Virus record (IMG/VR): IMGVR_UViG_3300007734_000751
Span: 1 to 64,000 of that record
From: a virus
Length of the DNA stretch: 64,000 nucleotides
Direction: 5' to 3' (one strand)
Positions 34,875-59,612 of this stretch are shown here, piece by piece. The notes below the pieces were generated by a model. The model searched no databases. It was not told the origin of the DNA and saw nothing but the letters and a program-made list of their open reading frames with translations. Within the stretch, counting starts at the first letter, position 1, and each line of letters begins with the position of its first letter. A program made the position numbers and the translations under genes.

Positions 34875-36267
34875 GCACTTCGAAGGCCCACGCAAATGGC
34901 AGCGCGAGGTGCTCGTTGAACTGCGCGATCACATCCACGCAAACAACGGACGAATAGACTTCGAGACGCTGCGGCTGGCGGTCAGTTCAGGACGCGGTAT
35001 CGGTAAGTCTGCGCTAGTCAGTTGGCTGACAATTTGGATGCTGACCACGCGGATCGGCTCGACGACCATCGTGTCGGCTAACTCGGAAGCGCAGCTCCGT
35101 AGCGTCACCTGGGCCGAGATAACAAAGTGGTTGAGCATGGCGATTCACAGCCACTGGTTCGAGGTATCCGCAACGCGGGTGCTACCGGCTAAGTGGATCG
35201 CGGAGTTGGTCGAACGTGATCTGAAAATGGGAACGCGCTACTGGGGCGTAGAAGGGCGGTTGTGGAGTGCGGAGAATCCTGACGCATACGCTGGTGTGCA
35301 CAACTTCGCGGGTGTCATGCTGGTATTCGATGAGGCGAGCGGAATTGATGATTCTATCTGGTCAGTTGCAGCGGGCTTTTTTACGGAAAATACCCCTAAT
35401 CGCTTTTGGTTGTGCTTCAGCAACCCCCGTCGTAACTCTGGTTACTTTTATGAGTGTTTTAACTCCAAGCGCGACTTCTGGCGAAATAAGATTGTCGATG
35501 CCCGATCTGTCGAAGGGACGGATAAAGCCGTCTACCAGCAAATCATTGACGAGTATGGGCCAGACTCCAGCGCGGCGCATGTCGAAGTCTACGGTCAGTT
35601 CCCCAACGCATCAGACGACCAGTTCATCGGAAACGCGCTGGTTGACGAGGCAATGGAACGTCCCGCTGTCGCCGACCAGTCCGCCCCCATCGTGGTCGGA
35701 GTGGATCCAGCACGCTTTGGGGCCGACGCCACCGTTATAGCCATAAGGCAGGGCAGAGACATCCTAGCCATCAAGCGCTACCGAGGCGACGACACGATGG
35801 AGGTTGTCGGTCGTGTCATCGATGTCATCGAAGAGTTCAAGCCAGCCTTGGTCGTCATCGACGAAGGCGGCTTGGGTGCGGGTGTAGTGGATCGGTTGAA
35901 GGAGCAGCGCTACAAGGTGCGCGGCGTGAACTTCGGCAATAAGAGCACGAAGCCCATGATGTATGGGAACAAGCGCGCTGAGATGTGGGGCGCGATGAAG
36001 GACTGGCTGAAGGACGCGAGCATACCGAAGGATCGCTACTTAAAATCTGACCTCATCGGGCCAATGATGAAGCCGGACTCGAAAGGCACCATATTCCTAG
36101 AGTCTAAGAAGGACATGAAAAGCAGAGGACTGGCGTCTCCAGACGCGGCGGACGCTATCGCGATAACCTTCGCATTTCCCGTAGCTAGACGCGAACAGCG
36201 AGTAGACAACACACGTCGCCTCGCGTATGGTGGCAACGCAGCCTCTTCAGGATGGATGGCAAGCTAA
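34741..36267 (+). CDS. terL: Terminase large subunit
   Basis: A 508-residue packaging motor. Residues ~82-92 hold SSGRGIGKSAL (Walker A), ~192-200 hold MLVFDEAS (Walker B), and CFSNPRRNSGYFYE lies in the coupling region. The nuclease domain shows VGVDPARFGADATVIA (~318), LVVIDEGGLGAG (~371) and PDAADAIAITFA (~466), giving the acidic active site residues. An ATG at 34783 behind GGAGGAAG would shorten the overlap with the small subunit and is a fair alternative start. It uses ATP to fill the procapsid and cuts DNA, docking on the portal. Confidence 0.93.
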   Translation: MQTTIYSPEEEQRLMATLWNPALKDDPLAFVRLAFPWKKPNTPLEHFEGPRKWQREVLVELRDHIHANNGRIDFETLRLAVSSGRGIGKSALVSWLTIWMLTTRIGSTTIVSANSEAQLRSVTWAEITKWLSMAIHSHWFEVSATRVLPAKWIAELVERDLKMGTRYWGVEGRLWSAENPDAYAGVHNFAGVMLVFDEASGIDDSIWSVAAGFFTENTPNRFWLCFSNPRRNSGYFYECFNSKRDFWRNKIVDARSVEGTDKAVYQQIIDEYGPDSSAAHVEVYGQFPNASDDQFIGNALVDEAMERPAVADQSAPIVVGVDPARFGADATVIAIRQGRDILAIKRYRGDDTMEVVGRVIDVIEEFKPALVVIDEGGLGAGVVDRLKEQRYKVRGVNFGNKSTKPMMYGNKRAEMWGAMKDWLKDASIPKDRYLKSDLIGPMMKPDSKGTIFLESKKDMKSRGLASPDAADAIAITFAFPVARREQRVDNTRRLAYGGNAASSGWMAS

Positions 36268-36518
36268 TGGTATCATTATCTGTAGGTCGTGGCGAGAAGC
36301 TATCGACGAAAGCGGGGGCTGGACTGACAGCCAAAGGCCGCGCTAAATACAATAAAGCCACTGGCAGCAAGTTAAAAGCGCCAGCTCCGAATCCTAAGAC
36401 CGAAGCAGATAAGGGCCGTAAGGCTAGTTTTTGTGCGCGCATGGGCGGCGTAGTCGCTAAGTCTAAGAACGCAGACCGCGCTAAAGCATCAATGAAAAGG
36501 TGGAACTGTGGCAAGTAA
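36267..36518 (+). CDS. DUF6321-like small protein
   Basis: An 83-residue basic protein starting on the large terminase stop (TAATG). The pattern AGLTAKGRAKYNKATGSKLK, then KGRKASFCARMGGV, matches the phage DUF6321 family as I remember it. Family members usually lie close to terminase genes; their role is unknown. The Cys, Arg and Lys content suggests DNA or RNA binding. Confidence 0.75.
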   Translation: MVSLSVGRGEKLSTKAGAGLTAKGRAKYNKATGSKLKAPAPNPKTEADKGRKASFCARMGGVVAKSKNADRAKASMKRWNCGK

Positions 36519-36657
36519 GCCAGGGCTATACGCCAACATACACGCTAAACGCGCGCGCATCGCAGCCGGATCGGGTGAGAAGATGCGTAAGGTCGGCGCT
36601 AAAGGCGCACCGACAGCGAAAGCGTTTAAAGAATCCGCTAAGACGAGGAAAAAATAA
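36508..36657 (+). CDS. Small basic phage protein
   Basis: A 49-residue protein with a GTG start at 36508 inside the end of the previous gene. PGLYANIHAKRARIAAGSGE, then KMRKVGAKGAPTAKAFKESA, is a sequence type I know from many phages beside portal genes. The stop overlaps the next ATG. It is probably a small nucleic acid-binding or virion protein. Confidence 0.7.
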   Translation: MASKPGLYANIHAKRARIAAGSGEKMRKVGAKGAPTAKAFKESAKTRKK

Positions 36658-36821
36658 TGCCTCTAGTTAAGTCCACATCTAAGAACGCCTTTCGGAAAAA
36701 TATCAAAGCTGAAGTCGCTGCCGGTAAGCCGGTCAAGCAAGCCGTTGCAATCGCGTATGCTACTAAGCGTAGCGCAGCGGCTAAGAAAGGCGGCATGAGC
36801 AAGAAAAGCGGTAAATGCTAA
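36657..36821 (+). CDS. Small basic phage protein
   Basis: A 54-residue protein starting on the previous stop (TAATG). PLVKSTSKNAFRKNIKAEVA, then AGKPVKQAVAIAYATKR, is another recurrent short phage sequence, with a Lys/Gly/Ser-rich tail. Its end overlaps the HNH gene by 7 bases. Function unknown. Confidence 0.7.
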   Translation: MPLVKSTSKNAFRKNIKAEVAAGKPVKQAVAIAYATKRSAAAKKGGMSKKSGKC

Positions 36822-37378
36822 TCTACGACGTTGGCATACCGTGCCGCAAAGGACACACAACAGGCCGATATACAGTCAGCCGCAAGTGCGTTCAATGCGC
36901 TAAAGATACGGCATTGGCGTGGAATAAAGCTAATCCTGAACGCTATAAAGAGATAAAACGTAAGTCGCGCGACCCCGAAAAAGAATCGGAAAGATATCGC
37001 AAATGGCGGCTAGAAAATCCCGATAAAGTAAAAGCCAAAAATGCTAATTGGCGTGATAAGAATTGGGATAAGTATTTAGATATATCGGCAAGTTGGAAAC
37101 GACGAAATCGCGGGCATACAAACGCTAAGACTAAAGAGCGACGACTATCTCAGATACAACGCACGCCGAAATGGCTGACAGATCAAGATTTTGCTGATAT
37201 AAAGAAATTCTATGATTTGGCCCATGAACTTTCGCAGGCTTACGGCTTTCCTTGGCATGTAGATCATATTATACCATTACAAGGTAAAACCGTTTCAGGA
37301 TTGCATGTAGTCGATAATCTCCAAGTTATTCCTGGGTCGGAAAATTCTCGAAAAGGCAATAGATTCTATGGCTGCTAG
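36815..37378 (+). CDS. HNH endonuclease
   Basis: A 187-residue protein. The C-terminal ~45 residues carry the HNH core (HVDHIIPLQGKTVSGLHVVD followed by NLQVIPGSENSRKGN): His-His pair, Asn and terminal Asn. The N-terminus has Cys residues (CRKGH, then CVQCAKD) like a small zinc knuckle, and the middle is very basic with Trp/Lys/Arg, suited to DNA. It lies between terminase and portal, where phage HNH enzymes may aid packaging cleavage; a free-standing homing enzyme is the alternative. It overlaps the portal start by 11 bases. Confidence 0.85.
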   Translation: MLIYDVGIPCRKGHTTGRYTVSRKCVQCAKDTALAWNKANPERYKEIKRKSRDPEKESERYRKWRLENPDKVKAKNANWRDKNWDKYLDISASWKRRNRGHTNAKTKERRLSQIQRTPKWLTDQDFADIKKFYDLAHELSQAYGFPWHVDHIIPLQGKTVSGLHVVDNLQVIPGSENSRKGNRFYGC

Positions 37379-39497
37379 TGACGTTGAAGGAGCCGGAAAA
37401 GTCTCCGATACCCCAGACCATGATCGTCTGGCTACTATGCGGCATCGCTTTACCGTTGCCTCTGCCGCTTATAGCGATTCACGGGAAGACGAATTAGATG
37501 ACCTTCGTTTTATGGCCGGAAGTCCTGACAACAGTTGGCAGTGGCCAGCCGACGTCTTGGCGACCAGAGGCGCGGTGCAGGGCCAGACGATCAACGCGCG
37601 GCCATGCCTGACGATTAACAAGCTGCCACAGCATGTTAGGCTGGTAACAAATGAACAACGACAGAACCGCCCCTCCGGCAAAGTCATCCCAGCGGACGAT
37701 AAAGCCGACGTCGCGGTCGCAGAAGTCTTTCAAGGTATTGTCAGACACATCGAATATTTGTCGGACGCGGACGTTGCTTATGATACCGCCTGCGACAATC
37801 AAGTTACCTACGGCGAAGGTTATATCCGAATCCTTACGGAATATTGCCGCGAAGACTCGTTTGACCAAGACCTGAAGATCGGTCGCGTTCGCAACAGCTT
37901 CAGCGTCTATATGGATCCGATGATTCACGATCCATGCGGATCAGACGCCGAGTGGTGCTTCATAACCGAAGACATTCCGAAAGAAGAGTATGAGCGTCTT
38001 TATCCTGACGCGCTGCCGATTTCTGTGATGATGTCGCAGGGCGTTGGCGATCAGTCACTTAGCATGTGGATGAGCCAGGAAACCGTCCGTATTGCTGAGT
38101 ATTTTTATATCGAACATCAGAAGCGCAAGCTGAACCTGTATCCAGACAATATGACGGCGTTCGATGGCACGCCGCTGGATAAGCAGCTCAAGGCGATGTT
38201 TGGCAAGCCGCTGAAATCTCGCACAAGCGAGCATCGTCAGGTGAAATGGCTAAAGACCAACGGCTTCGAGGTTCTTGAAGAGCGCGATTGGGCGGGTAAA
38301 TGGATTCCTGTCATCCGCGTGGTTGGCAATGAGTTTGAGGTAGACGGGCAGTTATACATCAGCGGTTTGGTGCGAAACGCCAAAGACGCGCAGCGCATGT
38401 ATAACTACTGGGTCAGCCAGGAAGCAGAGATGCTGGCGCTGGCTCCGAAAGCACCGTTTATCGGATATGGGGGTCAGTTTGAAGGATACGAAACAAACTG
38501 GAAAACGGCCAATACGAACAACTGGCCCTACCTCGAAGTCAACCCCGACGTCACCGATGGCGCTGGAAATCCTCTGCCATTACCTGAACGCGCGCAGCCA
38601 CCTATGGCGCAAACCGGCCTTATCCAGGCCAAAATGGGCGCTGGGGAAGATATCAAATCCACCACGGGTCAATACGACAGCTCCATTGGTGCGACCAGTA
38701 ACGAGAGGACGGGTCGTGCGATTTTGGCTCGGCAAAACCAAGGCGATACCTCCACATACCACTATGTGGACAATCTCGCCCGTGCGGTCAGATATACGAC
38801 AAGACAACTGGTAGATCTGATCCCTAAGATCTACGACACGGAACGCGTGGCACGCATCGTCGGACTCGACGGCGAAGTGGGTATGGTGAAAATCAACCCA
38901 AATCAGCCTGAACCAGTGCGCGTCATCAAGGATCCGATCACGGGTCTGGACATTGAAAAGATCTACAACCCATCGGTCGGCACATACGACGTGGTAGTGA
39001 CGACAGGCCCAAGCTACGCGACCAAGCGCCAAGAGGCGATGGAAGCGATGCAGATGATCTTGCAGACCAACCCGCAGCTCTGGGGTGTGGCAGGCGACCT
39101 GTTCATCAAGAACATGGACTGGCCTGGAGCGCAGGAAATGGCGGCTCGGTTCGCCAAGACGCTCGATCCGAAGGTTCTGGATAATACGGATGAGTCGCCA
39201 GAAGCGCAGATGATGCGCGCTCAGATGAACGACATGGCGAACCAGATGGAACAGACTGCGGCGTTGGTTCAGCAACTGCAACAGTCTTACGATATGCAGA
39301 AACTGGCGATTGACGAGCAAAATACGCAGATTAAGGCGTATGACGCAGAGACAAAACGTCTTCAGGCCATGCAAAGCGGGCTGTCGCCTGAACAGATCCA
39401 AGACATCGTAATGGGAACGGTCGCAGCGGCGATGGATACGGGCGATATTGTCCCGCGTAACACGCCGATGCAACCACAACTGCCAGGATTAGAATAA
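37368..39497 (+). CDS. P22-type portal protein (spans the unit 1/unit 2 junction)
   Basis: A 709-residue portal, close to the size of P22 gp1. It opens with RHRFTVASAAYSDSREDELD and DLRFMAGSPDNSWQWP, then TINKLPQHVRLVTNEQRQNR and a DYEN-less core with YGEGYIRILTEYC, FSVYMDPMIHDPCGSDAEWC and YNYWVSQEAEMLALAPKAPF, all typical of the family. The last third repeats residues at window positions 2-901. The shared 127-base junction (38597-38723) lies in this gene, so as written it may combine the N-terminal part of one phage with the C-terminal part of another. Confidence 0.9.
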   Translation: MAASDVEGAGKVSDTPDHDRLATMRHRFTVASAAYSDSREDELDDLRFMAGSPDNSWQWPADVLATRGAVQGQTINARPCLTINKLPQHVRLVTNEQRQNRPSGKVIPADDKADVAVAEVFQGIVRHIEYLSDADVAYDTACDNQVTYGEGYIRILTEYCREDSFDQDLKIGRVRNSFSVYMDPMIHDPCGSDAEWCFITEDIPKEEYERLYPDALPISVMMSQGVGDQSLSMWMSQETVRIAEYFYIEHQKRKLNLYPDNMTAFDGTPLDKQLKAMFGKPLKSRTSEHRQVKWLKTNGFEVLEERDWAGKWIPVIRVVGNEFEVDGQLYISGLVRNAKDAQRMYNYWVSQEAEMLALAPKAPFIGYGGQFEGYETNWKTANTNNWPYLEVNPDVTDGAGNPLPLPERAQPPMAQTGLIQAKMGAGEDIKSTTGQYDSSIGATSNERTGRAILARQNQGDTSTYHYVDNLARAVRYTTRQLVDLIPKIYDTERVARIVGLDGEVGMVKINPNQPEPVRVIKDPITGLDIEKIYNPSVGTYDVVVTTGPSYATKRQEAMEAMQMILQTNPQLWGVAGDLFIKNMDWPGAQEMAARFAKTLDPKVLDNTDESPEAQMMRAQMNDMANQMEQTAALVQQLQQSYDMQKLAIDEQNTQIKAYDAETKRLQAMQSGLSPEQIQDIVMGTVAAAMDTGDIVPRNTPMQPQLPGLE

Positions 39498-39859
39498 TGA
39501 GCTGCGGGGATCTGATAGGCCACCTCTTCTTAGCCCGCGATGTGACTCATAGCGTGCATCTAAACACCCGTTCTTATGCAAAACATAAGGCTCTGGGCGG
39601 TTTTTATGAGAATGTGATCGAATTAGCGGACGATTTGGCCGAAGCCTATCAAGGCAGACATGGCCTAATCGGGCCGATTACGCTTCATTCAGCCAAGAAA
39701 ACGGGCAATGTTATCGAGTTTCTTGAAGATTCACTGAAAGATGTTGAAGATCTTCGCTATAAAGTCTGTGAAAAGGACGATACGGCGATCCAAAACATTA
39801 TCGATGAGATAGTTGGTCTTTATCTCAAAACCCTGTATAAATTGAAATTCCTAGCGTGA
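39497..39859 (+). CDS. Small helical phage protein (DUF5856-like), unit 2
   Basis: A 120-residue homologue of 901-1263, starting on the portal stop (TAATG). The changes cluster at residues ~38-45 (YENVIELAD instead of YSKVIDLAD) with scattered silent differences, so selection keeps the protein. Same tentative DUF5856 resemblance and unknown function. Confidence 0.8.
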   Translation: MSCGDLIGHLFLARDVTHSVHLNTRSYAKHKALGGFYENVIELADDLAEAYQGRHGLIGPITLHSAKKTGNVIEFLEDSLKDVEDLRYKVCEKDDTAIQNIIDEIVGLYLKTLYKLKFLA

Positions 39860-39866
39860 GGAAATC

Positions 39867-40136
39867 ATGGCTTATTATGCACATCTGACCGCCACAACAC
39901 AGCTTAAGGTCGGTCTTGGCAAGCTGAAAGGCATTTTTGCCAGCTCTGGCTCATCGCCAACAGTAGCTGTTTACGACACGCCTGACGGCGACACGAATGA
40001 CCCTATCGTAATCGCTCAATTCACGGCTGCAACGCCTGGAAATTATGTGTTTACGGCGGAAGGTATCAGCTTAAATAACGGCCTTTACGTTGTTCTAGGC
40101 GGAACAAACCCGAAGGTTACAATCCTTTTCGAGTAA
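39867..40136 (+). CDS. Small beta-rich protein before the tail fibre, unit 2
   Basis: An 89-residue homologue of 1271-1540 with differences in residues 5-15 and near the C-terminus. Spacing to both neighbours is unchanged, which supports a tight functional link with the fibre that follows. Function unknown. Confidence 0.75.
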   Translation: MAYYAHLTATTQLKVGLGKLKGIFASSGSSPTVAVYDTPDGDTNDPIVIAQFTAATPGNYVFTAEGISLNNGLYVVLGGTNPKVTILFE

Positions 40137-40141
40137 TCTAA

Positions 40142-42718
40142 ATGGCCTTTATTTATAATCTTACTGACACTTGGAATGACGTTACAACTACATGGAACGG
40201 CATTAAATTAGCCGTTACCGACTCTGGTTCGTCATCGACTTCCAAACTCCTGAATTTAACGATTTCTGGCTCGTCAACGGGCTATTTTTATGTCGATAAA
40301 AGCGGAAATCTGACGCTTTCAGGAACTGTCAATAAGGTTACTTTAACGGCTCCAGCTACCAGCGCAACGCTTACGCTGGCTGATGGCTCTACTTTTGCGA
40401 CTTCTGGCGCTTATACGAGCACTTTTACCTTCACCGGCACGACTGCGCTGACGTTCCCAACGAGCGGCACGGTTACAGCGCTCGGTAACTCAACAACTGG
40501 CTCTGGTAGCATCGTCCTTCAGTCAAGCCCAACTCTGGTCACGCCTAATCTTGGCACGCCATCATTTGCAACGCTTACAAATGCTACTGGTCTGCCGATC
40601 TCGTCAGGTGTTAGCGGTCTTGGCACCAATGTGGCAACGGCGCTTGGCGTAAGTGTCGGCACAGACGGCGCATTTGTTGTAAAAGGCGGGGCGTTAGGCA
40701 CACCATCGTCAGGTAATTTATCAAGCTGCACAGGTTATGTCGTCGGTAATCTATCTGGCCTCGGCACAGGCGTAGCGACATGGCTTGCGACGCCATCTAG
40801 CGCCAATTTAGCAGCCGCTGTCACGGATGAGACAGGATCAGGCTCATTAGTTTTCGCTACATCACCAACCCTCGTTACACCTGCACTTGGGACGCCATCT
40901 TCGGCGACGCTAACCAATGCGACGGGATTACCTATTAGCACAGGCGTTAGCGGCCTTGGGACAGGTGTTGCGACGTTCTTGGCGACGCCGACGAGCGCGA
41001 ATCTCGCGGCGGCTGTCACGAATGAAACAGGATCTGGGCCTCTAGTCTTCGCAACCAGCCCGACTTTCACGTCTCAGGTTACGCTTGGCACGGCTAGTTC
41101 GACACGCGGCACGTTGGTTCTTGCTAATACAAGCGCCAATACGGTCACGCTACAATCCTCAAATACCACCGCAGCGGCTTACACGCTGACGTTCCCAGCG
41201 GCTGCGCCTGTTAATGGTTACTACCTTCAGACCGACAATCTTGGCGTCCTATCTTGGGCGGCAGGGGGCGGCGGTGGCGGTGGGTCACCTGGCGGGTCTA
41301 ACACGCAGGTTCAGTTTAACGATTCCGCGACATTCGGCGGCGAAGCTGCTTTTACATATACTAAAGCAACATACACGCTTGGGCTTGGCGTTGCCTCTAC
41401 ATCTACTGGCACATTCAGCCTTTATAACTCAGCCAGCGCCAATTCTGTTAGCTTAAAGTCAGGCAATAATAGCGTCGCTTGGTCGTTGACCTTACCTACG
41501 ACCGCAGGCACAGCTAATTACTTCCTGCAAACTGACGGCTCTGGCAACACCACATGGGCTGCGGCTGCGGCAGGCACGATCAACACCGGCACAGTCGGTC
41601 AGATCACCTATTACAGCGGCACAAACACGCTGTCTGGCACAACTACTGGCACGGGTGTCTTAACGGCTCTTGGTAACAACACGAACACCGCTGGCGGCGT
41701 TCTTGTTCCTGCGGCAGCTCTTACAGCAAGTGCTATCGTTCTTGGCGGCGGGTCTGGTACCGGCCCAGCTACGACGACAACAGGCACAGGCGTCATCACA
41801 GCCATCGGCAATGCTGTTAATACGGCAGGCGGTTTGTTAGCCCCTGCGGCAGCTCTCACTGCAAGCTCTCTTGTTGTCGGCGGAGGTTCTGGCACTGGCC
41901 CGTCAACGATAACGACCGGCACGGGCGTTGTTACGGCTCTCGGTGTCAACACAGGATCTGCCGGAGCGTTTGTCGTCAACGGCGGCGCGCTCGGCACACC
42001 GTCATCTGGCACACTCTCAAGCTGCACAGGGTTATCTCTTACAACTGGCGTTTCTGGCGTTCTTCCTGTCGCTAACGGCGGCACGAACGCATCTTCAGCC
42101 GGTATTACAGCGTTTAATAATATTACGGGTTACACAGCGGCGGGCGCGACAGGAACCACAAGCACCAATCTTGTGTTTTCGACCAGCCCGACACTTGTTA
42201 CGCCGGTTCTTGGTGCAGCAACAGCTACAAGCATCAACGGTCTGACGATCACATCGTCTACTGGCACGCTGACCGTTACTAACGGTAAAACGGCTTCTTT
42301 CAGTAACTCGATAACCTTTGCGGGCACTGATTCTACAACGATGACGTTCCCTGCAACGTCGTCGACAGTGCTTACGACAGGCAATACCGCTACAATTACA
42401 AAAGGCTATACTGTAACGCCATATAGCATTGGCACTGTATCTAGTGGCACATCAACGCCAGATCCGGCAAACGGTAACTATCAATATCTGACGAATGGCG
42501 GCGCATTTACTTTGGCAGCTCCGTCATCTGATTGTGCTATTGATATTCTTGTTATTAATGGCGCATCTTCAGGAGCTATTACTTTTAGTGGATTCAAAAC
42601 ACCTGGGACGGGTGTAACAGGAGCTACTTACGCTACTACCAATAGCACTTGGTGGGTTCTATCTATTCGCCGAACTAATAGTGTATCCACATATTCTTGG
42701 AATGGGCCTTGGACGTAA
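40142..42718 (+). CDS. Repeat-rich tail fibre protein, unit 2
   Basis: An 858-residue fibre. The first ~490 residues align well with the unit 1 fibre, including the Gly run and SPGGSNTQVQFNDSATFGG. After that it differs: instead of three tandem 48-residue units it carries two copies of a GVLVPAAALTASAIVLGGGS-type repeat (residues ~515-590), one GALGTPSSGTL unit and a VLPVANGGTNASSAGITAFN segment typical of phage fibres. The last ~130 residues are unrelated to unit 1 and end in a beta-rich SIRRTNSVSTYSWNGPW. The stop overlaps the adhesin start (TAATG). Confidence 0.85.
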   Translation: MAFIYNLTDTWNDVTTTWNGIKLAVTDSGSSSTSKLLNLTISGSSTGYFYVDKSGNLTLSGTVNKVTLTAPATSATLTLADGSTFATSGAYTSTFTFTGTTALTFPTSGTVTALGNSTTGSGSIVLQSSPTLVTPNLGTPSFATLTNATGLPISSGVSGLGTNVATALGVSVGTDGAFVVKGGALGTPSSGNLSSCTGYVVGNLSGLGTGVATWLATPSSANLAAAVTDETGSGSLVFATSPTLVTPALGTPSSATLTNATGLPISTGVSGLGTGVATFLATPTSANLAAAVTNETGSGPLVFATSPTFTSQVTLGTASSTRGTLVLANTSANTVTLQSSNTTAAAYTLTFPAAAPVNGYYLQTDNLGVLSWAAGGGGGGGSPGGSNTQVQFNDSATFGGEAAFTYTKATYTLGLGVASTSTGTFSLYNSASANSVSLKSGNNSVAWSLTLPTTAGTANYFLQTDGSGNTTWAAAAAGTINTGTVGQITYYSGTNTLSGTTTGTGVLTALGNNTNTAGGVLVPAAALTASAIVLGGGSGTGPATTTTGTGVITAIGNAVNTAGGLLAPAAALTASSLVVGGGSGTGPSTITTGTGVVTALGVNTGSAGAFVVNGGALGTPSSGTLSSCTGLSLTTGVSGVLPVANGGTNASSAGITAFNNITGYTAAGATGTTSTNLVFSTSPTLVTPVLGAATATSINGLTITSSTGTLTVTNGKTASFSNSITFAGTDSTTMTFPATSSTVLTTGNTATITKGYTVTPYSIGTVSSGTSTPDPANGNYQYLTNGGAFTLAAPSSDCAIDILVINGASSGAITFSGFKTPGTGVTGATYATTNSTWWVLSIRRTNSVSTYSWNGPWT

Positions 42719-43887
42719 TGTTATATGAACGGCATTTTGAGTGTAAAACCAGAGGGTTAGTTCAAGGGCCAACTAGTTTAGATGGCTTTCCTGGCGCTGT
42801 AACGTCCATAAAAACACCAAAACAATTTCGTTTTATAAATAAACGCGAATTTTTTGTTGAGGATTTTTTTAAAGATTTGCGTGAAGAAAATCAGCCTTGG
42901 ATTAGAACATATAAAATTGTTATTCGTTCACATGAAAGCAAAGAAGAGATATGGGTTCGCCCTTTTGCGGATAAGTCCGAATGTTTTCTAATTTGGGCGC
43001 GTTTGATTGGTATGGATTTAGAACGCCTACCGACCGATAAACCGTTTGTCTGTCCGACTATTTGGATAGATGGTGAGATAGAATATTTGTTTGCTACAGT
43101 TGACCAATTTACTACTGTTGGGACTTTTACTTGGTCGCCAACAGGTAATGTTGTCGCTACAGATTATCTTATAGTTGCTGGCGGGGCTTCTGGCGGCGGC
43201 GCACCTACAGGTAGTTATGGCGGCGCGGGTGGGGGAGGCGGCGGCGAACTTAAAACAACGACAAACTATACGTTTACTACTAAAACCGTTGTAGTTGGAA
43301 ATTATGGCGCTGCTTCGGGAGCGGGACAGAATAATGGTAATCCTGGGTATGATAGCTCTTTTGATGGAATAACATCAAAAGGCGGTGGCTATGGTTCAAA
43401 AGCATATGGCACTGGCGGCGCTGCTTCAGCTAGTGGCGGAACTGCGGCTTGTGGAGGCGGCGGCTCAAATGGTAGTGGCGGTACTGGGTCTAAATATAGC
43501 GGTGGTACAGGAGCGGATGGCGGCGGCGGCGGGGCTGGAGATAGCCAAAATGGTGTAAGCGGAAGCGGGGCAAATGGCGGTAACGGCGGAAACGGCACTT
43601 CTAGTTCTTTAACGGGATCTTCAGTTGCTTATTCTGGCGGCGGCGGCGGCGGCGCATATCAATCTGGCACCGTTGGCGCGGCAGGAAACGCGGCGGCTAC
43701 TGCTGGTGCGGCAAATCTTGCTAGTAGTTCTAACGCTACTGCAAATAGAGGTGGCGGGTCTGGCGGCGGCGGCGGAACTTTTACATCTGGTACAACTGGA
43801 TCGGGTAACGGCGGCACAGGATTTGTGGCGTTAAGCTATACACCTATTACGCTTGTAGTTCGCAATATGCCAATGTTAGGAATGTAG
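42718..43887 (+). CDS. Glycine-rich adhesin-like tail protein
   Basis: A 389-residue protein starting on the fibre stop; an ATG at 42697 lies inside the fibre gene and is rejected. Residues 1-130 form a compact globular part (MLYERHFECKTRGLVQGP, WIRTYKIVIRSHESKEEIWV). Residues ~130-165 lead into a long Gly-rich domain (to ~380) with many GGG, GGGG and longer Gly runs, as in phage tip adhesins that form polyglycine II-type bundles. It takes the place held by the 811-residue LamG/SPRY protein in unit 1, so the two phages should bind different receptors. Confidence 0.8.
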   Translation: MLYERHFECKTRGLVQGPTSLDGFPGAVTSIKTPKQFRFINKREFFVEDFFKDLREENQPWIRTYKIVIRSHESKEEIWVRPFADKSECFLIWARLIGMDLERLPTDKPFVCPTIWIDGEIEYLFATVDQFTTVGTFTWSPTGNVVATDYLIVAGGASGGGAPTGSYGGAGGGGGGELKTTTNYTFTTKTVVVGNYGAASGAGQNNGNPGYDSSFDGITSKGGGYGSKAYGTGGAASASGGTAACGGGGSNGSGGTGSKYSGGTGADGGGGGAGDSQNGVSGSGANGGNGGNGTSSSLTGSSVAYSGGGGGGAYQSGTVGAAGNAAATAGAANLASSSNATANRGGGSGGGGGTFTSGTTGSGNGGTGFVALSYTPITLVVRNMPMLGM

Positions 43888-43889
43888 AA

Positions 43890-44318
43890 ATGCAAGTTGG
43901 ATATAAGCTTATTGAAATTGCAACAGGCAATGTTATTCAATCTTGGGGCGGTAATTGGGGTCAGCTTCCTAATCCCCCAAGCCCAATAGAACTTCCTACT
44001 GGCGAGCAAGTATGCGGCGCTCAGACAGGAGACGAGTTTAACGGATATAGATTAGATCCGTGGAATATGGATAGTCCTCCAGTTCCTCAACAAGCCCCTA
44101 TGTGGGCTGTTAGAACAGTTCTTCAAAATGACAATCTGTTTGACCAAGCTCAAGCAGCCATTACGGCGTCAACAGATAACGCGCTTAAGAATGTCTGGGA
44201 ATACGGTAATTTTGCTGACAGAAATTCCAAAGCTATTGCATCTTTAGCCGTAACACTTAATTTGACAGACGCACAAGTAGATCAAATGTTTTTCGACGCA
44301 AACAGTCTGGAAGTCTGA
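43890..44318 (+). CDS. Small protein following the adhesin, unit 2 only
   Basis: A 142-residue protein starting two bases after the adhesin stop. Residues 1-65 look beta-rich (GYKLIEIATGNVIQSWGGNW), and residues ~70-142 are helical and acidic (MWAVRTVLQNDNLFDQAQAA, then ALKNVWEYGNFADR). The C-terminal helical part is a type that recurs in small tail-associated proteins of phages. It may assist assembly of the Gly-rich adhesin; that is inferred from its place in the cassette. Confidence 0.65.
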   Translation: MQVGYKLIEIATGNVIQSWGGNWGQLPNPPSPIELPTGEQVCGAQTGDEFNGYRLDPWNMDSPPVPQQAPMWAVRTVLQNDNLFDQAQAAITASTDNALKNVWEYGNFADRNSKAIASLAVTLNLTDAQVDQMFFDANSLEV

Positions 44319-44452
44319 TGAAAATTGAACTTACATCGCAAGAATGGACTTATATTTTAAATGTGTTGGCTCAACGCCCTTATGGCGAAGTTGTTGAACT
44401 CATAGCCAAGATACAGAAACAAGCCGTTGACGATGTTTCTGTAAACGAGTAA
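44318..44452 (+). CDS. Very small helical protein, unit 2 only
   Basis: A 44-residue peptide starting on the previous stop (TGATG). It reads MKIELTSQEWTYILNVLAQR, then PYGEVVELIAKIQKQ, a short helical type seen after many phage fibre genes. The overlap and codon pattern support translation. Function unknown. Confidence 0.6.
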   Translation: MKIELTSQEWTYILNVLAQRPYGEVVELIAKIQKQAVDDVSVNE

Positions 44453-44462
44453 TTATATACGT

Positions 44463-44485
44463 TACCGACTAGCCGGATAGCTAGG
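44463..44485 (+). promoter_or_regulatory. Second copy of the 23-nt hairpin element
   Basis: Identical over 23 bases to 6822-6844 and again just before the scaffold gene, although everything for 2 kb on its left differs between the units. It ends 15 bases before the GTG start. Confidence 0.5.
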
Positions 44486-44500
44486 ATGATAGGAGGTCGC

Positions 44501-45283
44501 GTGAGCGACGAAGACCTTGCTACAGCGGAGATAAGCACCGCGTCAGAGTTGGAAGCTACGGTGGCCCCAACGACTGAGGAAACCAAACCGGAAGAACAGC
44601 CGTCCGAGAAGTTGTTCACTCAAAAAGAGCTGGACAAACTTATCGACAAACGGTTTCGCAAAGAGAAGCTAGACGCGGCTAAAGCAGCCCAGGAGTTAGC
44701 TCGACTTCAGGCAGAATTGCAGGCCAAAACTGCAAATCCGCCAGCGCCAGATGACTTTGAGAACGCTCATGCTTATGCGGAAGCATTAGCAGAGCAAAAA
44801 GCTCAACAGCTTCTGTTGCGTAAAGAAGAAGAGCGGCAACAAGCGGCAGCGCTTGAGGCGTATAGAGAGCGTGAAGAGGAAGCGCGCGAAAAATACGACG
44901 ACTTTGAACAAGTCGCGTATAACGAGCACCTCCCCGTAACGGACTATATGGCCCAAGTCATTCAGGCTTCAGACATCGGCCCCGAAGTGATTTATCACTT
45001 AGGATCTAACCCGAAAGAAGCCCATCGAATAGCCAAGTTACCGCCGATCTTGCAAGCAAGAGAAATCGGGCGAATCGAAGCCAAATTGGCCGCTGATCCA
45101 CCGACTAAACGCACTTCAACTGCGCCAGCTCCGCTTGCTCCTGTTTCAGCTACTCGGTCGAGTTCAGGCCCAAGGTATGACACGACAGATCCTAGAGCTA
45201 TCAAGGATATGACGCCGTCTCAATGGATTGAAGCCGACAGGTTGCGACAGATCAAGAAGATGGAAGCGCAAAACCGTAGGTAA
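44501..45283 (+). CDS. Capsid scaffolding protein, unit 2
   Basis: A 260-residue scaffold. I chose the GTG at 44501, preceded by AGGAGG, over the in-frame ATG at 44486, because the AGGAGG lies between them and the unit 1 protein starts with TTG at the matching residue. The acidic N-terminus and the coiled-coil region diverge more from unit 1 than the C-terminal ~100 residues, which include the basic coat-binding end (RLRQIKKMEAQNRR). Confidence 0.8.
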   Translation: MSDEDLATAEISTASELEATVAPTTEETKPEEQPSEKLFTQKELDKLIDKRFRKEKLDAAKAAQELARLQAELQAKTANPPAPDDFENAHAYAEALAEQKAQQLLLRKEEERQQAAALEAYREREEEAREKYDDFEQVAYNEHLPVTDYMAQVIQASDIGPEVIYHLGSNPKEAHRIAKLPPILQAREIGRIEAKLAADPPTKRTSTAPAPLAPVSATRSSSGPRYDTTDPRAIKDMTPSQWIEADRLRQIKKMEAQNRR

Positions 45284-45290
45284 TTAAGTC

Positions 45291-46487
45291 ATGTCAAACT
45301 CAATTTTAACAATTGACATGATTACTCGCAAGGCTCTTGAGATCCTTGAGAATAATCTTGTCCTTACGCGCACTGTAAACCGTCAGTATGACGACTCTTT
45401 CGCCGTTGAAGGCGCTAAGATCGGCTCGACCCTTCGCATCCGTCTTCCTGACCGCGCTCTGGTCACGGACGGCGCTGCCCTTCAGGTTCAGGACGACAAC
45501 GAGCAATACACCACGCTCGCTGTTTCCAGCCAGAAGCACATCGGCGTAAACTTTACGACCGCCGAACTGACGATGCAGTTGGACGACTTCGCTGAACGTG
45601 TTCTGAAGCCTCGTATTTCGCAGCTTGCGTCTTCTATCGACGCTGACGTTGCGAATAGCTTCAAATACATCGGCAACTCGGTCGGCACCCCAGGCACCAC
45701 GCCTGCTACGTCGCTCGTCCTGTTGCAAGCTCAACAGAAGCTCAACGAGAACGCCGCTGTTATGCAGCCTCGTTATGCCACTGTTAACCCAGCCGCTAAC
45801 GCTGCGTTGATCGAAGGCATGAAAGGTCTGTTCAACCCTGTGTCGGCTATCTCGAAGCAGTTCAAGAACGGCGTATTTGGCGAAGGCATCCTCGGCTACG
45901 ACGAGCTGAATATGTCTCAGTCAATCAAGCAGTTCACGACTGGCTCACGCGCTGGCACCGTTACGGTTAGCACGACTGTTACTTCGGAAGGTTCAACCAG
46001 CATCGTTCTTACGGGCCTTGGCTCAACGACGATCAAAGCTGGCGACGTCTTCACGATTGCTAACGTCTACGCTGTTAACCCACAGACCCGTGAATCAACC
46101 GGCTCGCTCTATCAGTTCGTTGCTCTTGCTGACGTTACGGCGTCAACGACCGCTACGGTCACTGTTCCTGCGATGTATTCGGCTTCACAGGCTCTTGCTA
46201 CGGTTGACGCGCTTCCTGTTGCTACGGCTGCGGTCACGTTCCTCGGCGCTGCTTCTACGCAGTATCCACAGAACTTGATCTATCATCGTGACGCGATCAC
46301 CTTCGCCACCGCCGATCTTCTGCTTCCGCAGGGCGTCGATATGGCAAGCCGTCAGGTTCACAATGGCATCAGCTTACGCGTTGTTCGTCAGTATGACATC
46401 AATAACGACCGTCTGCCTTGCCGTATTGACGTGCTCTATGGCTACAGCGTGATTCGTCCGCAGATGGCCGTTCGCCTTTGGGGCTAA
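45291..46487 (+). CDS. Major capsid (coat) protein, P22 gp5-like, unit 2
   Basis: A 398-residue coat protein that differs from the unit 1 protein at only a few positions (for example MQP for MSP near residue 152, IAN for IGS near 253, ATA for SGA near 311) while silent changes are scattered through the gene. The same P22 coat features apply. The next hairpin differs in loop from unit 1. Confidence 0.92.
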   Translation: MSNSILTIDMITRKALEILENNLVLTRTVNRQYDDSFAVEGAKIGSTLRIRLPDRALVTDGAALQVQDDNEQYTTLAVSSQKHIGVNFTTAELTMQLDDFAERVLKPRISQLASSIDADVANSFKYIGNSVGTPGTTPATSLVLLQAQQKLNENAAVMQPRYATVNPAANAALIEGMKGLFNPVSAISKQFKNGVFGEGILGYDELNMSQSIKQFTTGSRAGTVTVSTTVTSEGSTSIVLTGLGSTTIKAGDVFTIANVYAVNPQTRESTGSLYQFVALADVTASTTATVTVPAMYSASQALATVDALPVATAAVTFLGAASTQYPQNLIYHRDAITFATADLLLPQGVDMASRQVHNGISLRVVRQYDINNDRLPCRIDVLYGYSVIRPQMAVRLWG

Positions 46488-46489
46488 TA

Positions 46490-46515
46490 GAGTGGGCTTC
46501 GGCCCGCTCTTTTTT
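46490..46515 (+). terminator. Hairpin terminator after the coat gene (TTCG loop), unit 2
   Basis: GAGTGGGC and GCCCGCTC pair around TTCG, followed by six T. This is the strongest intrinsic terminator in the window. Confidence 0.88.
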
Positions 46516-46539
46516 CTCATCATTCTTGGAGTTTAACCC

Positions 46540-46995
46540 ATGACAACTACTCAGAACGCGGCTTATCCGCTTGAGACGTTTGGCCCTTATGGCCCTATCC
46601 CAAATGGCGATGGCGGCTATCAGCTCGGCGCAGGCAATCTGTTAGAAGGAAATATGCAGGTAGCTACCGTTACGTCTTTGACGGGCGATGCTACTTTGAC
46701 GGCAGCGCAGGTCGCTGGCGGCATCATTTCCTGCAATAAAGGCAGCGACGCTGGCCTCACGGTTACGACGCCTACCGGCACGTTGCTTGACGCTGGTTTT
46801 CCAAGCGCCAAAGTTGGCTCAACCTTTGAGCTGACGATCACCAACAACAATAACAGCGGCGCTTCGTCGACTGTTACGTTCTCAGGTGGCACAGGCGTTA
46901 CGGTTGTTGGCTCTGGCACTGTTGCTCGTTACGGCGGCGCTACCTATCGCTTCGTCAAGACCGGCACGGCTACTTACTCTGCCTATCTGAAATAA
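46540..46995 (+). CDS. Conserved small virion protein after coat, unit 2
   Basis: A 151-residue homologue of 8897-9355, with TTGGAG nine bases before the ATG. NGDGGYQLGAGN and the Asn-rich NNNNSGASSTVTFSGG segment are kept; differences cluster in residues ~38-85. Possible head decoration protein. Confidence 0.7.
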   Translation: MTTTQNAAYPLETFGPYGPIPNGDGGYQLGAGNLLEGNMQVATVTSLTGDATLTAAQVAGGIISCNKGSDAGLTVTTPTGTLLDAGFPSAKVGSTFELTITNNNNSGASSTVTFSGGTGVTVVGSGTVARYGGATYRFVKTGTATYSAYLK

Positions 46996-46997
46996 TA

Positions 46998-47020
46998 GGG
47001 TGGGCTTTGGCCCACTCTTT
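46998..47020 (+). terminator. Hairpin terminator, unit 2 second of three
   Basis: GTGGGC and GCCCAC pair around TTTG with two further pairs outside, followed by TTT. Position matches 9359-9382. Confidence 0.7.
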
Positions 47021-47037
47021 CCTTTAGGAGATTAAAA

Positions 47038-47310
47038 ATGCCAAACACCAAAGCGGTTGGTGTTGCGTTCTCTGATCCAGAACTCAGCGGCGCATCTATC
47101 ACCAACTCGACATTCACATCGTCAGCTACGACGGGCGCTGTTATCGCTAACGCGACGGCAGGTCTTTACTTTCTGACATCTGCCATTACGGCTAACTCGA
47201 CCACGACAACGGCACCTGCCGGTTCGATTGCTACGACAACGAACGCAACAGGCACCGGCAAATTGTTTGTGTCAGATGGCACCAAATGGCAGTTTGCAGT
47301 AGTAGCCTAA
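47038..47310 (+). CDS. Virion protein with conserved N-terminus, short form
   Basis: A 90-residue protein sharing MPNTKAVGVAFSDPEL with the 156-residue unit 1 protein. The rest is different and shorter: a Thr-rich stretch, AGLYFLTSAITANSTTTTAP and a closing GKLFVSDGTKWQFAVVA, which resembles the end of phage fibre-type beta domains. It starts behind AGGAGATTAAAA. The shared start may be an attachment peptide. Confidence 0.7.
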   Translation: MPNTKAVGVAFSDPELSGASITNSTFTSSATTGAVIANATAGLYFLTSAITANSTTTTAPAGSIATTTNATGTGKLFVSDGTKWQFAVVA

Positions 47311-47317
47311 CAAACTC

Positions 47318-47340
47318 AGCGGCCTTTGGGCCGCTGTTTC
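47318..47340 (+). terminator. Hairpin terminator, unit 2 third of three
   Basis: AGCGGCC and GGCCGCT pair around TTTG and are followed by GTTTCC. Stem bases equal those at 9877-9894. Confidence 0.7.
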
Positions 47341-47355
47341 CTTAGAAAGTTACAC

Positions 47356-47559
47356 ATGGCTGTTATTTATTTGAAACACCCCGAACATGGGGTTAAAGTG
47401 GCGTGTCTCGACCTAGAGGCCGAAGCCGACGAAGAGAACGGCTGGATAAGGTTCGACCCAGATGACGACATACAGTGCGTACGACCAGATTTGCGGAGCG
47501 TTGAGGCTCCTAGGAGTGTTAGCCGAAGGCGAAACGCCCTCAGTAGAAACAGCGAATGA
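47356..47559 (+). CDS. Small acidic protein overlapping the gp4-like gene, unit 2
   Basis: A 67-residue protein. The ATG at 47356 matches the unit 1 start; an in-frame ATG at 47326 is inside the terminator region. Only two residues differ from unit 1 and the 98-base overlap with the next gene is almost unchanged. Confidence 0.7.
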   Translation: MAVIYLKHPEHGVKVACLDLEAEADEENGWIRFDPDDDIQCVRPDLRSVEAPRSVSRRRNALSRNSE

Positions 47560-48178
47560 TGCGCTGTATGCGCTGAATCAAATGATCGACAGTTGGGACA
47601 CCGAGCGTTTGGCGGTGTTCTCAACTAAAGATGATGTCTATCTTTGGCCTGCGGGTCAAATATCGCGCACTTATGGCCCTACCGGCGACGTGGTTGGCGA
47701 GCGCCCTGTCCTATTAGATGACTCAACCTACTTCCGCGATCCGCAGACCAACGTGTCTTACGGAATCAAGTTTATCAATCAACAACAATATGATGGGATT
47801 GCCGTTAAGACGGTAACGTCAACTTATCCACAGGTCATGTGGATAAATATGAGCTACCCAAATATTGAAATGTATGTTTATCCAGTGCCGTTGCGGTTGT
47901 TGGAATGGCATTTCATTTCCGTTGAACGGCTAACGCAGCCAGCGACATTAGCTACGGCGATCCTTTTCCCGCCAGGTTATCTGCGCGCTTTCCGTTACAA
48001 TCTGGCTTGCGAGCTTGCGCCTGAGTTTGGTGTTGAGCCATCGCCGACGGTTAGCCGCATCGCCATGTATAGCAAGCGCGATCTGAAGCGTATCAATAAC
48101 CCTGACGACATTATGGCCCTGCCTTACAGCATCGTCGGCACACGTCAGCGCTATAACATCTACGCGGGCAATTACTGA
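47462..48178 (+). CDS. Head-to-tail connector, P22 gp4-like, unit 2
   Basis: A 238-residue homologue of 10023-10739 with only about four residue changes (such as SVE for SSE at residue 27). The stop overlaps the start of the gp10-like gene. It also contains the inverted DnaA box pair. Confidence 0.85.
   Translation: MTTYSAYDQICGALRLLGVLAEGETPSVETANDALYALNQMIDSWDTERLAVFSTKDDVYLWPAGQISRTYGPTGDVVGERPVLLDDSTYFRDPQTNVSYGIKFINQQQYDGIAVKTVTSTYPQVMWINMSYPNIEMYVYPVPLRLLEWHFISVERLTQPATLATAILFPPGYLRAFRYNLACELAPEFGVEPSPTVSRIAMYSKRDLKRINNPDDIMALPYSIVGTRQRYNIYAGNY
47824..47846. promoter_or_regulatory. Inverted DnaA box pair, unit 2
   Basis: TTATCCACA (47824-47832) and TGTGGATAA (47838-47846) with the same 5-base spacer as at 10385-10407. 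All 23 bases agree between the units. Confidence 0.45.
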
Positions 48179-49956
48179 TGAAGACGCCGATCTTAGGCAG
48201 CTCATATGTAACCAGAAGCCCCAACGCGGCGGACAGCCGTATGGTCAATCTCTTCCCAGAGGTCATACCAGAAGGCGGCAAAGAAGCCGCATGGTTACAG
48301 CGCGCGCCTGGACTGCGGTATCTTCAGACATTAGGCGCAGGGCCAGTGCGCGGATTGTGGACGTTTACAAGCGATAGAATCGCGCCTGCCGTCGGCGAAT
48401 CTGCTACAGCGACTTATGGATATGCAGTATCGGCTAAAACTTTATACCGTATTGATACTGATTGGAATTATACTTCGTTAGGAACGATTGAAGGTGTAGA
48501 TCAAGTTACCATGACAGATAACGGACGGCAGATGTTTATCGCCGCCGGAACGTACGGCTACATTTATAACAGCACGTATAAAAAAGTTGCCTTCAACACG
48601 ACGAATACAAGCACAACTGTATCGGGCGGCGATACGACTTATGTTTACCCTGGTCAACCTGTGTCAGGCACCGGCATACCTGTAGGCGCGACCGTTGTTA
48701 GTGTAACTAATGCCACGACGTTTGTCTTATCGGCAGCGGCTACAGCAACAAATACCGGCACAACGCTGACATTCTCACCTTTTATAACTCAACTTACATC
48801 GCCGTTTGCTGGCGCTGTTGGTTGTGGCTTTCTTGACGGCTGGTTTGTATTTAACCAACCAAACAGTCAGATCTTTTGGGTTATGGATTCTACCGGCACA
48901 ACGATTGACCCGCTCTATTTTGCCAGTGCGGAAGGCTCACCTGACAATCTTGTTACGCTGATTGTCGATCACCGCGAAATCTGGCTGTTTGGCACTAACT
49001 CCGTCGAAGTTTGGTATGACGCCGGTTTGCCTGACTTTCCTATGGCGCGCATCCAAGGCGCGTTTAATGAAATAGGTTGTCTTGCGGCCTATTCGGTTGC
49101 GAAGCTCGACAACGGCTTGTTTTGGCTCGGCACCGACGCGCGCGGTAACGGTATTGTTTATCGCTCGAAAGGCTATTCCGGCGAGCGCGTTTCAACCCAC
49201 GCCGTTGAATGGCAGATCCAACAATACTCAACGCTTTCCGATGCTGTGGGATATACCTACCAACAAGACGGCCACAGCTTCTACGTTCTGAACTTTCCGA
49301 ACGCCAACACGACATGGGTTTATGACGTGGCGACTGGCGCATGGCATGAGCGCGCTGGATGGGAAAACAATCAATTTACCCGCACACGCGGCAACTGTCA
49401 GATGAACTTCAACAATGAGATCGTCATTGGAGACTATCGCACAGGCGAGATCTTTGCCTACGATCCGACAGTTTATACCGAAGCTGGCGCTACGCAGAAA
49501 TGGCTACGCTCTTGGCGCGCGTTGCCAACTGGTCAAAACGATTTAAACCGCACGGCGCAGCATAGTCTTCAACTGGACTGTCAAGCAGGTGTCGGTCTGG
49601 CTGGCTACAGCCAGGAGGAAGTCAATGATATTATTTATATTTATGATCGCGCACATGATTATATTCTTGACCGCGCTGGGTCTGCTTTAAAGATCCGCGA
49701 CTACGCTCAATACACCATCACCATTGGCGCTGACCCACAAGTCATGTTGCGCTGGTCTGACGATGGGGGTCATACTTGGTCAAATGAACATTGGAAATCT
49801 ATGGGCCAGATCGGCGAAACAGGCTATCGCACAATCTGGCGTCGGCTTGGCATGACTTTAAAACTCCGTGATAGAGTCTATGAAATTTCCGGCACGGATC
49901 CTGTGCAGATAGCGATCATGGGCGCTGAGTTGCACGCGAGTCCGACCAATGCCTAA
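48178..49956 (+). CDS. Packaged-DNA stabilisation / tail hub protein, P22 gp10-like, unit 2
   Basis: A 592-residue homologue of 10739-12517 of the same length. Divergence is concentrated in residues ~65-200 (TSDRIAPAVGESATATYGYA region and the Thr-rich insertion), while the rest is nearly the same. That suggests one surface is under different selection, perhaps where fibres attach. Confidence 0.85.
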   Translation: MKTPILGSSYVTRSPNAADSRMVNLFPEVIPEGGKEAAWLQRAPGLRYLQTLGAGPVRGLWTFTSDRIAPAVGESATATYGYAVSAKTLYRIDTDWNYTSLGTIEGVDQVTMTDNGRQMFIAAGTYGYIYNSTYKKVAFNTTNTSTTVSGGDTTYVYPGQPVSGTGIPVGATVVSVTNATTFVLSAAATATNTGTTLTFSPFITQLTSPFAGAVGCGFLDGWFVFNQPNSQIFWVMDSTGTTIDPLYFASAEGSPDNLVTLIVDHREIWLFGTNSVEVWYDAGLPDFPMARIQGAFNEIGCLAAYSVAKLDNGLFWLGTDARGNGIVYRSKGYSGERVSTHAVEWQIQQYSTLSDAVGYTYQQDGHSFYVLNFPNANTTWVYDVATGAWHERAGWENNQFTRTRGNCQMNFNNEIVIGDYRTGEIFAYDPTVYTEAGATQKWLRSWRALPTGQNDLNRTAQHSLQLDCQAGVGLAGYSQEEVNDIIYIYDRAHDYILDRAGSALKIRDYAQYTITIGADPQVMLRWSDDGGHTWSNEHWKSMGQIGETGYRTIWRRLGMTLKLRDRVYEISGTDPVQIAIMGAELHASPTNA

Positions 49957-50554
49957 TTATATCGACAATAACACGCAAATCCCTGCGGCCCGCGTCAAGA
50001 TGAATGACGACTCTACGGGATTTGTGAACCGGCCTTGGTATCGTTGGTTCTTTAATATGTATCAAGCCGTCGAAGCAGGGCGGCGATACGGATCTTTTTA
50101 TAGCACGGCGACACAAACTGCGACGGCGGCAAATACCGCATACGCCATGACTTACAATGCCACGACAGCTAATAAGCAAGGCACTGATCTTACTTACGGT
50201 GTATATACGGGCACACCAAATTCGCGTGTTTATGTAGATAATACAGCTACATATAACATACAGTTTTCCGCGCAATTTGTTAGCACTAACGCCGCGTCTA
50301 AAAACGTAACAATATGGCCTGCTATTAATGGCACGGCGGTTACAGCTTCTGCTACGCAAATTACAATGTCTGGTTCTAGCGGTGCCTATGTCGCTGCGTG
50401 GAATTTTCTGCTAAACCTTAACTCCGGCGATTATATTGAGATATATTGGGAAACGACCAATACAAACGTCTCAATCTATGCCGCCGCCGCATCGGGGCAT
50501 ATCCCCGCTATTCCTTCGGTCATCCTGACCGTAACAAGCTGTGTAGGTGTCTAA
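49949..50554 (+). CDS. Tail protein with likely jelly-roll, unit 2
   Basis: A 201-residue homologue of 12510-13115, overlapping the previous gene by 8 bases. The beta-rich C-terminal half is almost unchanged (IEIYWETTN for FELYWETTN). Confidence 0.7.
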   Translation: MPNYIDNNTQIPAARVKMNDDSTGFVNRPWYRWFFNMYQAVEAGRRYGSFYSTATQTATAANTAYAMTYNATTANKQGTDLTYGVYTGTPNSRVYVDNTATYNIQFSAQFVSTNAASKNVTIWPAINGTAVTASATQITMSGSSGAYVAAWNFLLNLNSGDYIEIYWETTNTNVSIYAAAASGHIPAIPSVILTVTSCVGV

Positions 50555-51757
50555 ATGGCTGTCGTAACGCCAACCGCAAAAGCCCAATTTATTGACGCCG
50601 CAGGCATACCGCTCGCAGGCGGTTTTCTTTATACCTACGCCGCTGGCACGACCACGCCGCAGGCGACTTATACGGATTCGACCGCATCTACGGCAAACAG
50701 TAATCCAATTGTCTTAGACTCGCGCGGCGAAGCTAATATTTGGCTTACTGGCGCAAACTATAAATTTAAACTAACGGACGCTAACGGCACAGAGATCTGG
50801 ACGGTTGATAACATCGCTGCGCCTTCTACGGCGTTGTCGCCTGTGTTCGATAGTAACGTCACGATTTCGGCCAACACTTCTGGCCCTGCACTTCTTGTTA
50901 CGCAGACAGGCGCGGGCGCGGCTATTCGTATTCAAGATTCTACGGATCCTGACTCATCGCCTTTTGTGGTCGATAACGCAGGCAATGTTGGTATTGGCAC
51001 AGCGTCTCCGGCTAATGCACTTGATTTAGCGGGCGGCGCTATTCAGGTATCATCTTCCGGCGGCACAGCCCGCACTATCATGTCAGCGGATTCTACGGAT
51101 TCTATTTTTGCAGTTAGCGACGACCGTAATTTTACTGTTAAGACCAATACAGTAACACGACTGACCGTTAACAGCTCAACGGCAACTTCTACTGTTCCTG
51201 TCGTGCTTCCTGGCGATCCCACATCCGCGCTTCAAGCTGCACCTAAACAGTATGTTGACGCGGCTGGCCCTGCGGGCGCTATTATGGCCTTTGCGGGCAC
51301 GACCGCACCGTCAGGTTGGTTGAAGTGCGAAGGCCAAGCAGTATCACAAACTACATATGCAAGTCTCTACGCCGCGATAGGAACGAACTGGAATACAGGC
51401 GGCGAAGGCGCGGGCAATTTTAGATTGCCAGATCTTCGCGGGATGTTTGTGCGCGGCACAGGCACCAATGCGACTGGTTCGTCTAGCGGTGCAGTAGGCC
51501 CATCAGTCGGCACATACGCAGCCGATACATATTTGAACCATAGCCACGCTGTAACAGATCCAGGCCATACACATTCATTTCCTGGCTATGCAGGTTCATC
51601 TCCAAGCTCCGCAGTAAGTGGAAGTACTTGGTATATTACTGGTTCTAGCACTAACACCAATTCAAATACCACTGGCCTGACCGTTAACACATCCACGACC
51701 GGCGGCACGGAAACAAAGCCAAAGAACTATGGCGTGCTATACATCATCAAGACCTAG
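50555..51757 (+). CDS. Tail fibre with Phage Tail Collar domain, unit 2
   Basis: A 400-residue homologue of 13116-14312. The N-terminal module and the collar domain (AFAGTTAPSGWLKCEGQAVS, then FRLPDLRGMFVRGTG) are kept. The tip after HSHAVTDPGHTH is a different Ser/Thr/Gly-rich stretch before the shared GGTETKPKNYGVLYIIK end. This local change at a fibre tip fits a shift in receptor choice. Confidence 0.88.
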   Translation: MAVVTPTAKAQFIDAAGIPLAGGFLYTYAAGTTTPQATYTDSTASTANSNPIVLDSRGEANIWLTGANYKFKLTDANGTEIWTVDNIAAPSTALSPVFDSNVTISANTSGPALLVTQTGAGAAIRIQDSTDPDSSPFVVDNAGNVGIGTASPANALDLAGGAIQVSSSGGTARTIMSADSTDSIFAVSDDRNFTVKTNTVTRLTVNSSTATSTVPVVLPGDPTSALQAAPKQYVDAAGPAGAIMAFAGTTAPSGWLKCEGQAVSQTTYASLYAAIGTNWNTGGEGAGNFRLPDLRGMFVRGTGTNATGSSSGAVGPSVGTYAADTYLNHSHAVTDPGHTHSFPGYAGSSPSSAVSGSTWYITGSSTNTNSNTTGLTVNTSTTGGTETKPKNYGVLYIIKT

Positions 51758-51774
51758 TATTATAGTGAGGCATT

Positions 51775-52761: not shown

Positions 52762-52763
52762 CT

Positions 52764-56122: not shown

Positions 56123-56385
56123 CACCAATGGCTGAATATCAAGTGTTCTTTGACGTGGCCGTTGGTATGATTGGCGTCCTGGGCGGATGGGTATTGAATA
56201 CCGTCTGGGGCGCTGTCAAAGACCTGCAAGAAGCCGATAAGGATCTGGCTGAGAAGGTCGGTCAGATCGAGGTTCTTGTCGCTGGACGTTACGTTACCCG
56301 CGAAGAGTTTAACACGACACTTAGCCAAGTGTTCATAAAGCTCGATACGATTCGAGATATTGTGAGCCAGAAAGCGGATAGATGA
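56119..56385 (+). CDS. Small membrane-anchored coiled-coil protein, unit 2
   Basis: An 88-residue homologue of 18612-18872 with an extra two residues at the start; ATG 56119 overlaps the previous stop, ATG 56128 is the alternative. One membrane helix (residues ~8-29) precedes the coiled coil. The last 35 codons lie in a 106-base tract identical to unit 1. Confidence 0.75.
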   Translation: MTPMAEYQVFFDVAVGMIGVLGGWVLNTVWGAVKDLQEADKDLAEKVGQIEVLVAGRYVTREEFNTTLSQVFIKLDTIRDIVSQKADR

Positions 56386-59547: not shown

Positions 59548-59557
59548 AAAAAACTAT

Positions 59558-59587: not shown

Positions 59588-59612
59588 GCAAATCACAGAA
59601 AGGTAATATACA

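Follow-up and report, generated by a model that had tools for sequence, protein, structure and literature searches.

A 72.6-kb double phage genome in IMG/VR is very probably a chimeric contig of two related P22-like phages

The present analysis leaves little doubt that the 72,555-base IMG/VR record IMGVR_UViG_3300007734_000751, whose bases 1-64000 constitute the 64,000-base stretch analysed here (the window), is a chimeric contig in which two related and presumably co-occurring P22-like phages of ~38 kb each, here termed A and B, were joined by an assembly error. What looks like a double phage genome is almost certainly a database artefact and not new biology. A preliminary description of the window had reported that bases 1-127 are identical to 38597-38723 and that the two copies first differ at base 128 (C in the first, T in the second), and both observations were reproduced. 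It had staked its account on the sequence not continuing leftward from base 1, and such a continuation is absent, base 1 being the true start of the contig in the record. Comparison of the whole 72,555-base record with itself further revealed that its final 181 bases (72375-72555) repeat 35242-35422; this tract is the longest repeat in the record, and its second copy finishes on the last base of the contig. Within the window the 127-nt match is indeed the longest repeat, the longer tract existing only in the whole record, and shorter repeats of 113, 109 and 106 nt were recovered as described, although the next-longest repeat inside the window, 123 nt in length (9917-10039 and 47356-47478), had been missed. 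The two units were likewise correctly seen as homologous yet diverged, as they are colinear with ~65-88% identity depending on the segment, and homology is absent across the host-recognition region and some stretches of the early region. As all 56 of the 127-mers that the units share sit in the two tracts that touch the contig ends, chance does not account for the 127-nt match (Table 1).

Table 1. Coordinates of the repeated tracts, the phage segments and the two genes in which the tracts lie
Feature	Position	Strand	Evidence
127-mer at the contig start; branching vertex in the portal gene, exit via base 128 (C) into phage A	1..127	+	exact match, k-mer graph
Second copy of the 127-mer (portal ORF codons 410-452), exit via T into phage B	38597..38723	+	exact match, k-mer graph
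First copy of the 181-nt tract, codons 168-228 of the terminase large-subunit gene; second branching vertex and alternative false-join site	35242..35422	+	whole-record repeat, k-mer graph
Second copy of the 181-nt tract, outside the window at the end of the record	72375..72555		whole-record repeat
Middle segment, single copy, 3,174 nt; may be A's, B's or both	35423..38596	+	repeat and k-mer graph analysis
Phage A, colinear with one circle of MW202483.1	1..35241	+	alignment
Phage B (reaching 72374 in the record), colinear homologue of A	38724..64000	+	alignment
Terminase large subunit ORF, 508 aa	34741..36267	+	phrog_2 terminase large subunit
P22-type portal ORF, 709 aa, spanning the junction	37368..39497	+	PF16510

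The topology of the k-mer graph ties these tracts to the contig ends. With unit 1 (1-38596) circularized and unit 2 (38597-72555) kept linear, the graph at k=127 contained exactly two branching vertices, 1/38597 with one edge in and two out, and 35242/72375 with two edges in and one out, against 10 branching or end vertices at k=99 and 56 at k=55. Of the common 127-mers, one opens the contig and the other 55 lie within its last 181 bases; every other tract common to the units is at most 123 nt long. The contig thus begins exactly on one vertex, opening with exactly k bases that recur at the internal junction, and finishes in the shared tract that starts at the other vertex, and tracts of at least k occur only at these two vertices on the path, both at contig ends. 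A real double genome broken at random would not have both of its ends on these tracts. The k=127 graph walk that had been proposed from the window is strongly supported by base 1 being the contig start and by the other end falling in the 181-nt tract, the single further shared tract that reaches 127 nt, and it is further backed by exact 127-nt end overlaps among relatives from the same metagenome, by the k of the presumed pipeline and by a second two-unit record, all described below.

These data allow a model in which two related P22-like podophages, each of ~37-39 kb, would have been placed in one k=127 de Bruijn graph, where both would have been assembled as circles owing to putatively circularly permuted or concatemeric DNA. 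The two genomes would have 127-mers in common at two sites only, the portal 127-mer and the 181-nt terminase tract. The path of the assembler would start on an edge out of the portal vertex, so that the first 127 bases of the contig are that vertex, then circle A, pass from A to B somewhere in 35242-38723, next circle B, and halt where the shared terminase tract ends. Some observations fit this model less readily. A 127-nt tract is resolvable by 150-nt reads or by pairs, and only uneven coverage or a mistaken choice of path would produce a misjoin at precisely that site; a join in the 181-nt tract, or in a longer collapsed stretch, is more readily accounted for. In addition, 126 and not 127 nt are repeated at the start of the second two-unit record and in one end overlap between relatives. 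Among the relatives searched, no near-identical single copy of A or B was found above ~95.5% identity over long stretches.

Contigs of relatives taken from IMG/VR, compared pairwise within one and the same metagenome, provide a calibration for this model. Exact 127-nt end overlaps were found in three metagenomes, namely 3300027769 (L033/L220, L033/L234 and L234/L220), 3300044655 (L024/L208) and 3300043449 (L035/L236), while the L208/L038 overlap measures 126 nt. Further, the last 127 nt of contig G015 (3300042868) equal its own positions 58-184, and contig G002 carries a terminal repeat of exactly 99 nt, another k of the JGI pipeline, in which metaSPAdes is run with -k 33,55,77,99,127 (PMC7311315, PMC11584781). 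A k of 127 is therefore documented for the pipeline and visible in the contigs of relatives, and we infer the same assembler and k for the studied record itself. L220 and L234 share a 160-nt tract at their ends, which falls in the region of the terminase gene where the record also stops, and the start of L033 maps to 35338-35464 of the record. The 46-mer at 35377-35422, which lies in the terminase gene and also at the end of the record, is present exactly in 65 IMG/VR stretches, and of the 47 contigs available in full length, 7 stop no more than 200 nt from it on the 3' side (1.5 expected). The terminase tract, judged from these sequences, appears to be a conserved spot where the graphs of co-occurring strains branch.

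The same family has yielded a second record of this kind. The relative IMGVR_UViG_3300044675_001281 (L253-L255, 51,296 bp) carries two portal genes, and its opening 126 nt equal its positions 38054-38179, giving a unit of 38,053 bp; its units diverge after the 126-nt match (91.7% identity), and an identical block of 7,462 nt runs from 6155/43835 to the contig end. It looks like one genome in which two versions of a ~6-kb stretch were walked successively. It resembles the studied record in its two portal copies and in a start that is repeated internally, and differs in that its strains share the 7,462-nt end block where the studied record has a 181-nt end tract. The 59,857-bp record G024 was considered as a further chimera and rejected, as it contains no duplicated genome.

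The place of the false step can be confined to 35242-38723, so that it may lie at the 181-nt tract and not at 38597-38723. Two overlapping candidate circles can be drawn, 1-38596, which closes on 127 nt, and 35242-72374 (37,133 bp), which closes on 181 nt; they have the segment 35423-38596 in common, and it is present only once in the record. As this middle segment may be A's, B's or identical in both, the false join is not necessarily at 38597. Unit 1 had been put forward as a complete genome of 38,596 bp, and it does close as a circle on 127 nt; its completeness does not follow, as 35242-72374 closes equally well. The likelihoods given for the three resulting readings are shares inside the artefact explanation, which they divide rather than compete with. 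There is close to an even chance that the step fell at the 181-nt tract 35242-35422, in which case A would be an open fragment, B would own the middle segment and be complete as the 37,133-bp circle, and the junction at 38597 would be genuine B sequence. This placement is consistent with the closure of 35242-72374 through the 181-nt repeat, with a tract length that exceeds a 150-nt read where 127 nt falls short of it, with a path that ends where B completes a full circle, and with the breaking of relatives' contigs at the terminase tract. However, the data fit A as owner of the segment equally, and the comparison with relatives expresses no preference: when identities to 53-60 relatives were used to correlate the difference A minus B with the middle segment, neither the left-hand rho (0.08) nor the right-hand one (-0.17) was significant. 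Tentatively, A may instead own the middle segment and be complete at 38,596 bp, with the false step at 38597-38723, as the preliminary description had it. The circle 1-38596 closes on the 127-mer, its order and length fit MW202483.1, and a sequence resembling 38570-38596 adjoins the tract on the left in the 11 relatives that contain its opening 50 bases; however, a repeat left unresolved would be expected to exceed 127 nt, and the left-hand sequence is conserved across the family, so that it does not tell A and B apart. It is unlikely that A and B are identical over all of 35242-38723 (3,482 nt) and that both circles are complete. Such a long repeat would best account for the failed resolution, and precedents are at hand in the identical block of the second two-unit record and in co-occurring relatives, which have tracts of up to 1,353 nt in common. 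However, under a simple shared edge the contig would end on 127 identical bases instead of 181, and this reading calls for a third strain that branches at 35422; the contig end lies 54 bases beyond the vertex, which favours an edge of its own for the 181-nt tract and hence two different continuations after 35422.

Outside the artefact explanation, the two units could form a real heterodimer, one molecule that holds either prophages in tandem or a concatemer recombined from two phages. Recombination of this kind is possible in co-infected cells, and the join is colinear and in frame within the portal gene. However, homology between A and B, with matching reading frames, is what carries the portal ORF through the junction without a stop, and an uninterrupted ORF does not demonstrate a recombinant. 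Against a heterodimer stand the contig ends, both of which fall exactly on the two shared tracts, and the repeat length of 127, which equals the k of the presumed pipeline. In addition, no integrase or resolvase was found (no match to PF00589 or PF00239), a scan of bacterial genomes for portal relatives found none, and the best 80 portal relatives all come from records the size of one genome, none above 39.6 kb. Nothing supports tandem prophages, as the join lies inside the portal gene and phage sequence, and not an integrase, att sites or host flanks, extends up to both contig ends. The preliminary description had kept tandem prophages or a heterodimer as a residual option, and on this evidence it survives only as a highly improbable one; that genuine heterodimeric phage DNA of at least 72 kb, as a recombinant concatemer of sister phages, was present in the sample and sequenced as such is equally improbable.

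Returning to the chimeric contig, comparable artefacts have been described in published work. In the CheckV paper, concatenated genomes in IMG/VR, and terminal repeats whose lengths match a k-mer size, are regarded as probable artefacts (PMC8116208). The concatenated contigs described there resemble the studied record in being above the expected length, in containing more than one genome length and in having terminal repeats equal to the k of the assembler, but they are repeats of one genome with a k-mer frequency above 1. In the studied record the copies are diverged and the k-mer frequency statistic would stay near 1, making it harder to flag; copy-number checks based on repeated k-mers would miss the chimera for the same reason. 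Virome benchmarks have found that chimeric contigs arise from co-existing related viruses and that metaSPAdes yields more of them than MEGAHIT (PMC5610896). Those chimeras, like the present one, are artificial contigs made from two distinct related genomes, and the studied record differs from them in running through a near-complete circle and then most of a second. Left unflagged, it would be taken for a phage of 72.6 kb that has its terminase, portal and tail module in duplicate, inflating both genome size and gene copy number. A general signature may be drawn from it, namely that the first or last k bases recur inside the contig and that both ends lie on shared tracts.

Each unit is predicted from its proteins to be a P22-like podophage. 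Domain scans, mostly of unit 1 with unit 2 being colinear, identified a P22-type portal (PF16510, E=5.5e-173) and coat protein (PF11651, E=3.7e-41), together with a tail collar protein, a family A DNA polymerase and a terminase, and the unit sizes fit a P22-like genome of about 38-40 kb, for which headful packaging and circular permutation would be expected. No tRNA was found. Podoviridae sp. ctNMl277 (MW202483.1), a circular genome of 38,801 bp, has the gene order of the units once around, likewise codes for a P22-type portal, coat protein, terminase, tail collar protein and DNA polymerase, and is ~78-80% identical to the units in DNA over the aligned parts; it differs in holding a single genome copy and in its spring-water origin. 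The host-recognition region is swapped between the phages, occupying 3888-6323 in A, where an 811-aa protein carries Laminin_G_3, SPRY and DUF7483 domains, and 40142-43887 in B, where an 858-aa ORF is accompanied by a 396-aa glycine-rich tail protein (PF21722, 42697-43887) for which no relatives were found in IMG/VR. Downstream of the portal region, a 780-aa ORF (1546-3888) contains an imperfect 144-bp tandem repeat of 2.7 copies (3046-3436), and related repeats occur in unit 2.
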